Origin: Taibaiella soli
GTDB lineage: Bacteria; Bacteroidota; Bacteroidia; Chitinophagales; Chitinophagaceae
NCBI RefSeq assembly: GCF_003236175.1
Contig: NZ_QKTW01000002.1
Coordinates: 1-64,000, forward strand
Reading direction: 5' to 3'
Length of the DNA: 64,000 nucleotides
Part shown: positions 7,742 through 62,225 of the stretch, piece after piece
Position numbering within the stretch: the first letter of the stretch is position 1
Layout: each line of letters opens with the position of its first letter
Notes under the pieces: model-generated
What the model was told of the DNA's origin: nothing
Databases searched by the model: none
The model's input: the letters and a program-made list of their open reading frames with translations, nothing else
Made by a program: the position numbers and the translations under genes

Positions 7742-10345
7742 ATGACAATTACCAATTTTTTTAAAGGCAAGTGCAAAAATGCTTTATCCTTTCGAACGAT
7801 GACCAAATTCAGCGGTTTGGCAGCGTGTCTTTTACTCGCTGATTATGGTGCTAATGCACAAATTAATTTGTCCGACATTACACCAGGAAGCGTTACGGTG
7901 GATGTTTCAGGTACGGGAACAACAACCAGCAGCTCAACGCCTGTAGACAATAGCGCTACAACAAGTCAGGTACTCAATGCCAATGGTACTATCACGATTG
8001 ATCTTGGTTCTGCCAAGGTAGTTCAGGGGTATAGTCTTACTAACGGTGGCTGGATAAATTATCCTTCTGATTGGACTATTCAGGGATCTAATAATGCTAC
8101 CAGCGGTTTTGTGACATTAGATACGCATACAGGCAATACCTGGGAAATGGATGGCTCCCGCAAGTTTTTTGCTGCCAACAATAGCACCGCCTACAGATAT
8201 TATCGTTTTGTAAATAATGCGAGTACGCAGGTGGGTATATACGAGATCGAGTTATTTCAGAATTTCTCAATCCGGGGTACAGTGTTTCAGGACTACAATC
8301 TGAATGATGTACAAGATGCAGGTGAGCCAGCTGTTGTCGGCACTACGGTATGGCTGAAGCAGCTTTCTAATGCGACGCCGATCAGTACCACTGTGACAGA
8401 CGCCACTGGCGCTTTTCAGTTTCCTGGCAGCGCAATTGACGGACAGGAACGTTTTTCTGTAATCGTACAACCGCAGGGAAATCTCCTGCCAAGATCAGAG
8501 CGCTTAGCATACACCTGGCCTAAAAGCTGGGCAGACGGTGTTGTTATGTTTGCGAATATATATCCTTTGCAGGATGCAAACCCTTATTCTCAAAGTGGCG
8601 TAGTGAATTTTGGTCTTTTGCCTAATACGTCTTCCTATGTGAGCGAGGTAACGCATGCTAATCCTAACCTGATCACCAATGAGCATAATGGCACTTTTGG
8701 TACTTCGGATTCTACTGGTACAGGATTTATGGACTTGCACCCGAATGCTATTTCCTTCAATTATTACGATCCTAGACCAGATATGTTCCCTAATGTAACG
8801 GATTATGTGATGGGGAGTGATTATTCCTACGAGAATTCAATTGCCAGCGGCAGTATGTTACAGGCAGAGGCAACTTATACGGTTACTGATATGCGCGGAA
8901 CTACAATACTGGAAACCCTGGACGGTGGTTCCGGTTCACAGAGTATGACTCAAATTTTGAACAGTACTTCCTGGGGATGGCGCTATTCGGTTGGTGCTAC
9001 TAACGGTGCATGGAATGATCGTTTTATGGCATTGAACGGTAATGCTGCAGCGCCGATAAGCTCTGCCGAAAATATATTCTCTGATACAGTAACGCTGGTG
9101 CAAAATAAAAACTATTCATTTGGTCTTTATGGAAAGGGCGCAAACAAAACTTATCAGGGTGCACAGTTTGCAGTACCTACTAAATTGCGTTATTCCCTGA
9201 TTAATTTAGCAACGGGCGATACTGCAGCGATAGGCTATATGGTAGTACAAACCACTACTTCAAACGCATCAGATAGTATCAACCTCGGTTGGAACAGGGT
9301 TGTTACCAACTTTACGGCAACTGCAGCGGGCAATTATGGTGTTTATTATCAAACTTATGCTAATGGTACTGCAGGAAATGACGCTTATCTGGATAATTTC
9401 TTTTTGCGTCAGGCTTCTTATCAGATTTCGGGTACTGTTTACAATGATGCTAATGGAATGAGTAATGGTGTTATTGATGGTACGCCTATGAATGCAATGG
9501 CCGGAACGCCAGTATACGCTTATCTGCTGGATCCGTCAACAAATCAGGTAGCAGGTATTTCCAATGTTGCCAGTGATGGTACTTATATGTTGTTTGCACC
9601 GGATGTTGACAAGTCTTACCAGGTTGTCATAAGTACACAGGTGCTGAATAGTGGCGATATTTATGGTACAATGAATACGCCGTCCGGCTGGAATTTTGTA
9701 GGAAGTAACACCGGTGTGAATAATACTTCGGGCAATAATGTGAGCAGCGCTGCTACCAGTGTAACTGTCTTTGCGGTTAATCCGTCCAGTGATGTTACCA
9801 ATGTGAATTTTGGTTTTATACAAGGTGCTCCTTTGCCAATAATTCTTAAAGATTTTACTGCTTCAAAAAATGGCTGTGCCGCACGCCTGGATTGGAATAC
9901 AGCTTCTGAAGTAAACGTGAAAAATATCCAGATTGAAAGAAGCAGCAACGGCGGTGATTTTGCTACTATTGCTACTGTACAGCCAAATGGCGGTGGACAT
10001 TATACCTACGCAGATGATCTGGGAACAGGACGCTATGGTTACCGTCTGAAGGTTAATGATTATGACGGAACTTACTTTAATAGCTGGGTTGCTACAGTAA
10101 CGCTCGCTTGTGATCAGCATGTTCAGGTATATCCTACCAGCACAAGTGGTATCGTTTACGTAACAGGTGCGAATGCAGGTGCGGTGATTAATGTTTATGA
10201 CGCTGCAGGCCGCACTGTAATTACTACAAAAGCTAACAGTCAGAAAACGACGTTGTCGCTGAGCGGTCTCCCTTCCGGAACCTATTTTGTAGCGCTTATT
10301 GATGGCAATCAACTGGTGAAACAAACAACTATAATAAAGGAATAG
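7742..10345 (+). CDS. T9SS-exported adhesin-like protein with discoidin and SdrD-B-like domains
   Basis: An 867-residue surface or secreted protein. After the signal peptide (…LAACLLLADYGANAQ; a second ATG at 7799 would give a shorter one) comes a discoidin/F5-8C-like domain at about 30-175 (ITIDLGSAKVVQGYSL … YRYYRFVNNAS). Then an SdrD-B-like domain follows (GTVFQDYNLNDVQDAGEP, about 180-270), then a beta-sandwich region with another SdrD-like repeat (SGTVYNDANGMSNG, about 560-650). The end has the Ig-like LDWNTASE/IERSSNGG module and a T9SS sorting domain (about 790-867). Discoidin domains usually bind carbohydrate or surfaces, so an adhesive role is inferred. It stands alone between two terminators. 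Confidence 0.8.
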   Translation: MTITNFFKGKCKNALSFRTMTKFSGLAACLLLADYGANAQINLSDITPGSVTVDVSGTGTTTSSSTPVDNSATTSQVLNANGTITIDLGSAKVVQGYSLTNGGWINYPSDWTIQGSNNATSGFVTLDTHTGNTWEMDGSRKFFAANNSTAYRYYRFVNNASTQVGIYEIELFQNFSIRGTVFQDYNLNDVQDAGEPAVVGTTVWLKQLSNATPISTTVTDATGAFQFPGSAIDGQERFSVIVQPQGNLLPRSERLAYTWPKSWADGVVMFANIYPLQDANPYSQSGVVNFGLLPNTSSYVSEVTHANPNLITNEHNGTFGTSDSTGTGFMDLHPNAISFNYYDPRPDMFPNVTDYVMGSDYSYENSIASGSMLQAEATYTVTDMRGTTILETLDGGSGSQSMTQILNSTSWGWRYSVGATNGAWNDRFMALNGNAAAPISSAENIFSDTVTLVQNKNYSFGLYGKGANKTYQGAQFAVPTKLRYSLINLATGDTAAIGYMVVQTTTSNASDSINLGWNRVVTNFTATAAGNYGVYYQTYANGTAGNDAYLDNFFLRQASYQISGTVYNDANGMSNGVIDGTPMNAMAGTPVYAYLLDPSTNQVAGISNVASDGTYMLFAPDVDKSYQVVISTQVLNSGDIYGTMNTPSGWNFVGSNTGVNNTSGNNVSSAATSVTVFAVNPSSDVTNVNFGFIQGAPLPIILKDFTASKNGCAARLDWNTASEVNVKNIQIERSSNGGDFATIATVQPNGGGHYTYADDLGTGRYGYRLKVNDYDGTYFNSWVATVTLACDQHVQVYPTSTSGIVYVTGANAGAVINVYDAAGRTVITTKANSQKTTLSLSGLPSGTYFVALIDGNQLVKQTTIIKE

Positions 10346-10491: not shown

Positions 10492-10992
10492 ATGAGTAAA
10501 TTCCTCAAAGAACCAATTCCGTCCGCAATCTTTAACAGTGCAATGACTGACATTAGCGCGCTGAAAGTGCAGGTTATGCAGTATTCCGTAGCCCTTGCAT
10601 CTTCTGAAAAGCAGCGGATGCGCGTAATGGCGGAAGGACGCGAAGGTTATGTCCGTTTGTTATCGCGGATTGCGTTGTCACATGTCGACAGCCTTTCTCG
10701 AAATGATGATCCTGCCCAACTGATTGCCGCCCTCGATTATGACCAGCAGTTGGAGGATCTTCGTCAGTTGCTCATGAGTGTCTCGGAACAGATCAGCAAT
10801 ATACAGGCTGCAAACAGCAATGACATTATGATCCTCTCCGATCGCTATACCGCATCATTGCAGGCCGGACGCACCACCAACAGTGCACTTGATACGGCGA
10901 TGCATGAAATTGATGACTGGAATAAACGCTATGGCTCTCGTAAAGCTGACGATAATCCGACTCCGGATACACCGGCAAGTACGCCACAGTAA
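10492..10992 (+). CDS. Hypothetical helical cytoplasmic protein
   Basis: A 166-residue protein without signal peptide or membrane segment; I do not recognise it. Almost the whole length is predicted helix (MTDISALKVQVMQYSVALAS, then DQQLEDLRQLLMSVSEQISN), ending in a disordered proline/threonine tail. The heptad-like spacing suggests a coiled coil or helical bundle. The start at 10492 is preferred over one 87 bases upstream, because the extension would overlap the upstream terminator's T-tract and looks non-coding. It is flanked by terminators on both sides, so it is probably a single transcription unit. Confidence 0.55.
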   Translation: MSKFLKEPIPSAIFNSAMTDISALKVQVMQYSVALASSEKQRMRVMAEGREGYVRLLSRIALSHVDSLSRNDDPAQLIAALDYDQQLEDLRQLLMSVSEQISNIQAANSNDIMILSDRYTASLQAGRTTNSALDTAMHEIDDWNKRYGSRKADDNPTPDTPASTPQ

Positions 10993-11014
10993 TCTGAATA
11001 AATACCTGGCCTGG

Positions 11015-11043
11015 GCCTCCGCAGTTTGCGGGGGCTTTTTTTT
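11015..11043 (+). terminator. Intrinsic terminator
   Basis: GCCTCCGCA and TGCGGGGGC pair around GTT, followed by eight to nine Ts. It ends the helical-protein gene. Confidence 0.8.
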
Positions 11044-11059: not shown

Positions 11060-11350
11060 CACGAAGTGGACCTTATGCTGTAAGTAGGTAGACCTCGTGA
11101 ATCAGTAGGTCGACCTCGTAAAACACAAGGTCGACCTGGTATCTAAACAAAGTGGACCTCGTGAATCAGTAGGTCGACTTCGTAAAATACAAGGTCGACC
11201 TGGTATCTAAACAAAGTGGACCTCGTGATTCGGTAGGTCGACTTCGTAAAATACAAGGTCGACCTGGTATCGGGACAAGGTGTACTTAGTGATTTAGTAT
11301 GTCGACCAGATAAATCACGAGATCGATTTCGTAAAAGGCTAGCTCGCCTT
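11060..11350. repeat. 64-bp tandem repeat array rich in AGGTCGACCT
   Basis: Non-coding tandem repeats. The block beginning GACCTCGTGAATCAGTAGGT recurs at 11091, 11155 and 11219 with an exact 64-base period, and a decayed copy starts near 11282. Each 64-base unit is built of three related segments of about 21 bases, each containing GGTCGAC or GGTGGAC followed by CTCGT or CTGGT, so the array has two levels of repetition. The core AGGTCGACCT is a perfect palindrome. The period is not a multiple of three, and no reading frame runs through it. There is no cas gene and no unique spacers, so it is not a CRISPR. Confidence 0.85.
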
Positions 11351-37872: not shown

Positions 37873-38121
37873 AGTTTTAAGTTGAATGTTTTAAGTGCTA
37901 CGTTTTAGGTCGTTTTGTCGTTCATCGCGTTACTTATAACTTAAAACGTACAACTTATAACTTATAACTCATACCGTTAGCTCATAACTCAAATAGCTGT
38001 TTATACATCTATATTTTTTATTGTTACCGCTATTTTTAATAAATAGTAGGTTAAGCTTTTGTCTTATCGTAATATGTAAATTAATTCATTAATTTTCGTA
38101 CTATTAAAGATCAAATCGCTG
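37873..38121. other. AT-rich intergenic region with short direct repeats
   Basis: Contains runs of the form ACTTATAACTTATAACTCATA and related TTAAAAC repeats (37900-37995). No gene or promoter was identified. This simple-sequence type recurs in other intergenic gaps of the window. Confidence 0.35.
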
Positions 38122-61856: not shown

Positions 61857-62225
61857 ATGTACGATAATTAAAAGTCAAAATTCAAAATTCAAAAATCAAA
61901 ACCAGTATAACCGCGAGCAGTGACTTTTTTGTCGTGTGTAGAAATGAAACGTCTGATGTTTCATTTCTTTGAGTTGAGGGATTTGTTTTCCAGGTCGTTT
62001 CATTCTTCTTCGCTACGACGCAATTAACGCCTCTGCTACTCGCGTTTGTCTCGCTGAGTTCTGATGGCATAGGACCTAAAACAATACTTTCCGTTGAGCG
62101 GTATTAAAAACAGGTGGCGGGGATTATTGACGTTTGACTTTTCACGTTTGACCATTCACCACGTTCAAAATCAGCCATCAGGAAATCAGCCCTCCGCGAT
62201 TTTGTCAAATCAGTATCTTTAATTT
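61857..62225. other. Intergenic region with dispersed repeats
   Basis: About 370 bases without a gene. It holds runs of CAAAATTCAAAATTCAAAAA type (61876-61900), a hairpin AGAAATGAAAC…GTTTCATTTCT near 61940-61970, the GACGTTTGACTTTTCACGTT sequence that also occurs near 57680, and an ATCAGCCATCAGGAAATCAG element (62170-62190). No promoter box was found upstream of the next gene. Confidence 0.4.

Follow-up and report, generated by a model that had tools for sequence, protein, structure and literature searches.

The window analysed here, a 64,000-nucleotide stretch of the Taibaiella soli genome (contig NZ_QKTW01000002.1), carries a gene for a small, predicted all-helical protein, here called A167, followed by an intrinsic-terminator-like stem-loop and an intergenic tandem array of near-palindromic cores (Table 1). 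The original prediction placed the array between a terminated gene and a T9SS gene; its intergenic position and the terminator-like stem hold, but the downstream neighbour matches Por_Secre_tail at only 24.6 bits, below the Pfam cut-off of 27. The upstream partner gene and the dispersal of the repeat were both overlooked in that prediction.

Table 1 Features of the A167 gene and array in the window.
Feature	Coordinates	Strand	Basis or detail
166-aa all-helical protein gene, array-associated family (A167)	10492..10992	+	Translation, alignments, AF2 model; no known family
Intrinsic-terminator-like stem-loop and T run	11013..11043	+	Stem 11013-11037, between gene and array
Tandem array of near-palindromic cores, 12 of them clear and a few decayed	11060..11350	.	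Spacing 21/21/22 bp
Higher-order repeat, 64 bp, 3.4 copies, 90% matches	11091..11307	.	TRF
Perfect palindromic core AGGTCGACCT	11107..11116	.	Others begin 11128, 11192, 11256

TRF confirmed that the array is real: the 64-bp period was recovered without indels, together with a period of 21 (8.8 copies, 11083-11269), the regular tandem repetition expected of a bacterial satellite. Twelve near-palindromic cores, with AGGTCGACCT as the best form, lie between 11064 and 11308 at successive steps of 22, 21, 21, 22, 21, 21, 22, 21, 21, 22 and 21 bp, and past 11308 decayed cores go on to about 11350. The predicted build of three 21-base segments per 64-bp unit, centred on GGTCGAC or GGTGGAC, is correct as to the three segments, but the third core of each unit reads AGTGGAC; likewise, the cores had been described as perfect palindromes, and the perfect form does exist, but in only four of them. 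The units carry the GTAGGTCGACC reading in some cases and not in others. With at most one mismatch, AGGTCGACCT occurs seven times in the 64-kb window, always inside the array, against a chance expectation of 1.04, and this count was reached in none of 100 shuffles. A coding repeat (21 bp being seven codons) was rejected for this array because of the 21/22 alternation and the stops present in all six frames; since a 22-bp step falls at every third unit, no frame is kept across it, in agreement with the predicted absence of protein-coding potential. Nor is the array CRISPR-like, since its spacers recur with the 64-bp unit instead of being unique. Some other 21-bp arrays may be coding, with parts open in one frame (L209, L308, L317 and L318); at L209:13762-14274 and from L207:8467 onward, one frame runs without a stop for as many as 170 codons and would yield heptad-like peptides. 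The window also holds heptanucleotide repeats (ACTTATA and AATTCAA) at 37932-37973 and 61866-61901.

The AF2 model of A167 (pLDDT 88.5, pTM 0.68) has five predicted helices (residues 11-29, 37-42, 51-63, 74-127 and 131-151), one of them 54 residues long. Searches of Pfam, NCBIfam, PADLOC and PHROGs returned no family matched by more than one of 25 members of the protein family at E <= 0.01; sporadic Pfam matches to Gag_p15 and Barstar were confined to one member each. Among the Pfam matches of these 25 members (E <= 0.01) there was no transposase family, Y1/HUH included, and among their Pfam and NCBIfam matches no site-binding adaptor (RHH, ParB-like or Rep). A profile search of PDB sequences (best E 0.066) and Foldseek searches of the PDB (best E 2.8) and of a viral library (best E 0.29) found no relative, and the best VIA-align score (Z 6.2 over 81 residues) is helical-bundle background; we caution that failure to find a fold match is no proof of a new fold. 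Of the 25 proteins, 18 carry a net negative charge, including all nine of the A167 subfamily, and the fold searches recognized no DNA-binding fold, so direct DNA binding by the helical protein is doubtful.

Two close paralogues of A167 in the same genome (on contigs C10 and C18, 58 and 57% identical) each have a AGGTNNACCT array behind them, and a divergent fourth member was recovered in the second profile round (L193, E 5.7e-20). Matches were found in 7 of 394 genomes of the organism's family, at 10 loci outside this genome, and a profile run over 395 genomes of the class had matches in 11 genomes, the source included, and added 15 further loci. Members of the A167 subfamily are 22-58% identical to the window protein, and the set used for counting linkage comprises 29 distinct loci in 17 genomes. 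With A167 as query, 50,697 phage records gave no relative, and three scans of viral contigs gave none either. In 72,556 plasmid records searched with three family proteins, A167 and the L317 protein had no match and the L309 protein had one, partial (62% of the query); its relative on a Thiodictyon plasmid record is 31% identical and has no array.

Several family loci have neighbours that we record as observed. At L129 (C18:43069-46516), the order is an XRE gene, an ATPase-like gene, a gene that we take to be RloB-like, the A167 gene and the array, the names being our presumptive ones, and this is possibly a cargo or defence cassette. At L123 (C10:33831-36879), the array, the A167 gene, a gene that looks by eye like a P-loop NTPase and an XRE gene stand in mixed orientation. 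The L315 family gene, which has no TRF array, is followed from about 2350 onward by a gene that is cas9-like by eye, and at L276 an ORF on the minus strand, beyond the array and some 500-868 bp past the family gene, has by eye the look of an HxlR-type winged-helix regulator.

Across the 29 loci, an array with a 21-22-bp period lies downstream of the family gene in 23 cases and upstream in none, as scored by TRF within 1 kb of the gene for periods of 20-23 bp and their multiples (four of the 58 flanks, including the upstream flank of L316, were shortened to 499-631 bp by contig ends). The window locus had been picked for its array; when the four own-genome loci are dropped, 19 of 25 loci have a downstream array. 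The 23 positive loci span 13 of the 17 genomes and nine families of Bacteroidia. Some positives are weak (L274, 2.8 copies; L283, 3.5 copies and 588 bp off; L316, an 84-bp unit repeated 1.9 times), and the array-negative loci are L275, where the gene is broken, L278, L279, L282, L313 and L315. Autocorrelation of the downstream 400 bp, which is independent of TRF, gave a pooled z of 29.5 at lag 21, followed by lags 42, 63, 43, 22, 65, 44, 64 and 66, all multiples of 21-22 bp, and only then, weakly, by lag 11; the repeats are thus spaced by whole helical turns (pooled lags 21, 42, 63 and 22, 43-44, 64-66). Upstream flanks reached a maximum z of 2.5, and flanks of XRE control genes 5.3 at lag 33. 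By this measure L313, L282 and L278, all missed by TRF, show the 21/42/63 lags, and L275, L315, L279, L283 and L317 give no clear 21-bp signal. When the 29 XRE control loci were scored by TRF in the same way, 3 had a marginal row (3.2, 1.9 and 2.0 copies).

In 17 of the 23 loci, a distance of 19-118 bp separates the stop codon from the beginning of the array, and a terminator-like site separates gene and array in 21 of 23 (40 mononucleotide shuffles: mean 12.5, maximum 17). Array periods of 21.3, 21.5, 21.7 and 22 bp keep no reading frame. Arrays are found apart from the gene as well, which counts against treating the two as one module: in G196, a genome with a family gene, 21-bp arrays also occur in stretches where no family gene is present, and such stretches contain an array of period 21 bp with 17 copies as well as two of period 41 bp (L286:3579-3940, L289:11065-11286 and L290:16186-16355). 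The background sample from G403 contained one non-coding row of 2.9 copies. The linkage count covers 29 loci, with the background of the gene-carrying genomes sampled in part.

These counts bear on the origin of the array by slippage from a single ancestral site, which the original prediction held to be equally possible and which now appears much weaker. A functionless minisatellite of this kind would account for the higher-order units of 43-129 bp and the homogenized copies, both of which are marks of slippage or unequal exchange. It would not account for one period recurring in differing sequences, and always downstream of homologous genes, across nine families, nor for half-sites that several genera, and the gene subfamily, have in common (below), and we therefore judge a neutral origin to be very improbable.

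The shared half-sites concern the subfamily of the window gene. The motif AGGTN1-3ACCT occurs three to six times each in six of the nine arrays of this subfamily (the three own-genome loci, L281 and L283 in G196, and L277 in G403), and a looser form, AGGN3-5CCT, occurs three times in a seventh (L274, in G226); L276 and L280 have neither. Neither form was present in any of the 14 other gene-linked arrays, where shuffles lead one to expect about 0-0.25. Calculated by hand, the hypergeometric chance is 1.5e-4 for seven of nine and 8e-4 for the strict six of nine, or 1.0e-3 (loose) and 6e-3 (strict) when a single own-genome locus is kept. We caution that the loose form and the wider L283 stretch were chosen after the arrays had been viewed; the four positive arrays outside this genome were found via the gene, not via the core. 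A more general coevolution of protein and array was tried and is not claimed, because in Mantel tests on 6-mers the arrays gave r 0.41, but the upstream flanks 0.21, and with one own-genome locus 0.21 for arrays versus 0.29 for upstream flanks; since flanks can be as strong as arrays, we claim only the half-site count.

Palindromy is frequent and not confined to one sequence. A palindromic unit was detected (P < 0.05, uncorrected, column permutation) in 11 of the 23 gene-linked arrays and was not significant in the other 12; palindromes at other loci include CTAAACCGGTTTAG at L310 and CCAGATAAAATCTGG at L307. Such symmetry could also belong to RNA, with the array transcribed as a string of hairpins acting on the transcript of its own gene or on other RNAs. 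The predicted single-strand folding of the window array is strong (DNA parameters, z -6.75), and at L306, L307 and L320 the array reaches to within about 20 bp of the start codon of an HTH gene, of which it may therefore be the leader. The arms, however, do not covary: own-genome arrays have 854 Watson-Crick cells against 857.9 expected (sd 10.1), and the 11 palindromic gene-linked arrays 360 against 358.3 (sd 5.5). This speaks against hairpins and indicates that half-sites of sequence, rather than base pairs, have been kept. Moreover, the terminator-like site usually parts gene and array, Rfam returned nothing at gathering score in 14 array loci, among them that of the window (L001), and sub-threshold matches only in the window stretch, and RNA leaves the two-turn period unexplained. 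An RNA function is thus, in our judgement, improbable.

A genome-wide search for clusters of the core, as suggested in the original prediction, found them at 10 loci of this genome: the pattern AGGTNNACCT-N9-14-AGGTNNACC had 49 matches and the reversed-pattern control none. At sequence level, the 306-bp window array matches three contigs (C10, C18 and C29) of the 5.38-Mb genome at E < 0.02. Scatter with random spacing had been named as an observation that would tell against a binding array; the repeat is indeed scattered, but its spacing stays at 21 or 22 bp in the core chains at these loci, with one 23-bp step as the single exception. A stricter core pattern hit 1 of 394 genomes of the organism's family, the source genome itself. 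Palindromy in this genome extends beyond the window's core: 22 arrays were examined, of which two could not be tested, and 14 of the remaining 20 have a palindromic unit (P < 0.05, uncorrected, column permutation), eight of these with other cores; the array on C31 was cut wide for this test, which probably diluted its signal. Eighteen of the 22 have no family gene beside them, which again counts against the module. Gaps of this genome also contain tandem repeats of about 100-203 bp (L137:1300-1809, of the type GGTCAT..GAGGAG..CTGATTTCGCG, and L193:5830-6607 and 8407-8782).

Dispersal of this kind is what a selfish repeat would produce, comparable to REP sequences and their RAYTs, with the helical protein or another factor spreading or expanding palindromic arrays in safe sites behind terminators. 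Consistent with this, palindromic copies of one core lie at 10 dispersed loci and the A167 gene at just three of them, a terminator-like site precedes 21 of the 23 gene-linked arrays, and TRF, for periods of 20-22 and no fewer than 3 copies, returned 14 rows representing 13 arrays from 1.264 Mb of this genome but none from 0.8 Mb of four relatives. Against it stand the Pfam matches of the 25 members, which include no transposase family, the constant position of the array downstream of the gene (23 of 23 cases), and the absence of A167 relatives from the plasmid and phage collections and the viral contigs. We consider a selfish repeat unlikely.

The core was also sought among named genomes (63 stretches), where several of the matches are coding repeats. 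Stops interrupt all six frames of the window-core arrays of Porphyromonas gulae, Tannerella, Epilithonimonas, Chryseobacterium, a Chitinophagales MAG and Kiritimatiellae, and an array with this core is also present in Treponema. In stretches of 8 kb or less around them, the same-core arrays of Porphyromonas, Tannerella, Chryseobacterium, Treponema and others have no family gene, which likewise counts against the module. Porphyromonas gulae (L022:1389-3087) and Tannerella forsythia (L071:5615-7336) have a 1.7-kb stretch in common; the two copies are 93.7% identical and contain a 22-bp AGGWCGACCT array, so that transfer is suggested.

Genes for HTH proteins adjoin several arrays, and the array might then be the operator of an XRE-type protein whose paralogues stand beside it. 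This genome has five close XRE paralogues, each no more than 3.2 kb away from a AGGTNNACCT array; two follow an array at a distance of 88-110 bp, and an HTH/coiled-coil gene directly follows the array at L306, L307 and L320 (3 of 23). Between the L306 and L307 proteins, the HTH_3 match is above cut-off for L307 and below it for L306; the L307 protein and the XRE paralogue on C11 are not closely related (E 0.036). An XRE operator as a general rule is opposed by the 29 XRE homologue loci in relatives, which have no comparable arrays (three marginal rows), and by XRE promoters without the core: three of the five XRE genes have no AGGTN1-2ACCT, with one mismatch allowed, in the 420 bp upstream. 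In addition, for the remaining 20 of 23 arrays, no gene of this type follows the array in the ORF listing (L129 and L309 end at the contig end). We regard an XRE operator as having little probability; because homologue loci elsewhere do without comparable arrays, the HTH protein is at most an optional partner. On C25, a distant XRE paralogue (gene at 757 of L139) is closely preceded by a 22-bp array of other sequence (L139:261-574), which has 14.3 copies and a higher unit of 66 bp.

Taken together, the fixed two-turn period, the changing sequence, the symmetric half-sites without covariation and the co-inheritance with a gene make a cooperative protein-binding array the best reading, whereas slippage and RNA hairpins are disfavoured because neither predicts the period or the side. 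The multi-site protein-binding array of the original prediction thus remains the preferred interpretation, with binding itself deduced from sequence. We propose a two-part module in which the helical protein gene, the terminator and a phased array of symmetric, putative protein-binding sites are inherited together, and we put the chances of this proposal at about even. Our confidence is moderate in the mechanism that would join the observations of linkage, period, frequent palindromy, subfamily half-sites and dispersal of the core in this genome. Each unit would be recognized as a symmetric site by a dimeric DNA-binding protein. With a spacing of 21-22 bp the sites would share one face of the helix, so that bound dimers could cooperate in building a local nucleoprotein complex, of which the helical protein would be a component or partner, binding directly or via an HTH protein such as the HTH/coiled-coil neighbours. 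Recombination or slippage would change the array length by several units at a time (43, 64-66 and 105 bp) with the spacing held. Partition-like, insulating and self-spreading roles would all fit such an array.

The proposed module can be set beside known systems. REP sequences with their REP-associated tyrosine transposases (RAYTs) are characterized by regular spacing, a GTAG or CGTC tag at the foot of the palindrome and a Y1/HUH transposase. REP/BIME elements are reported to be short, palindromic, intergenic repeats that are dispersed, with the cognate gene adjoining some copies (PMC2817692, PMC3116915, PMC3733652). The arrays described here are likewise short, palindromic, intergenic, regularly spaced and dispersed, with related copies beside a gene. 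Unlike REP/RAYT systems, however, the gene belongs to an all-helical family that has no transposase match, the period is fixed at 21-22 bp, the arrays occur on the downstream side only (23 cases) and their sequence varies by lineage. Iteron and plasmid centromere arrays (ParR-parC, SopB-sopC) consist of tandem sites about two helical turns apart that adjoin the gene of their binder. The present arrays resemble them as two-turn tandem sites beside a gene, here with putative binding, but differ in that the family has no recognized partition NTPase or RHH/ParB-type adaptor, and in the many arrays per genome; in the plasmid records, the three family proteins searched yielded one partial match.

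Bacterial satellites, in the available part of the survey by Subirana and Messeguer (2019, PMC6749651), are at least 4 tandem copies of 10-200 nt in families dispersed in the genome, with transposed families of non-coding long-repeat satellites given for Leptospira interrogans and Methanocella conradii only. Our arrays are satellite-like in copies and dispersal, but gene linkage and helical period do not figure in that survey's account, so far as it was available (PMC6749651). BrickBuilt of Porphyromonas gingivalis is another case of short tandem repeats in Bacteroidota; its 23-nt unit AGAYCATARTATCCTCTCRTRTG lies within a MITE with IS-like ends, and the 21/22-bp window unit differs from it in sequence and period (PMC4596501). 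We found no published description of the gene-array pair in open PMC papers, using partly narrow searches, and one may exist elsewhere.

More tentatively, and with somewhat less than even confidence, we suggest that these loci represent a nucleoprotein system of Bacteroidia: a helical protein family, most of whose members have their own phased array behind the gene, with lineage-specific recognition sequences and dispersed cognate copies. In design, such a system would resemble a partition centromere or REP/RAYT, with unrelated proteins. The rule observed in nine bacterial families (23 of 29 loci) ties a nameless protein family to one kind of DNA element and provides a direct experimental handle on which protein binds and what the complex does. 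It also offers a candidate explanation for a class of intergenic minisatellites otherwise dismissed as slippage. If the complex is centromere-like, insulating or spreading, bacteria would have a chromosome organizer or selfish repeat of a new kind.
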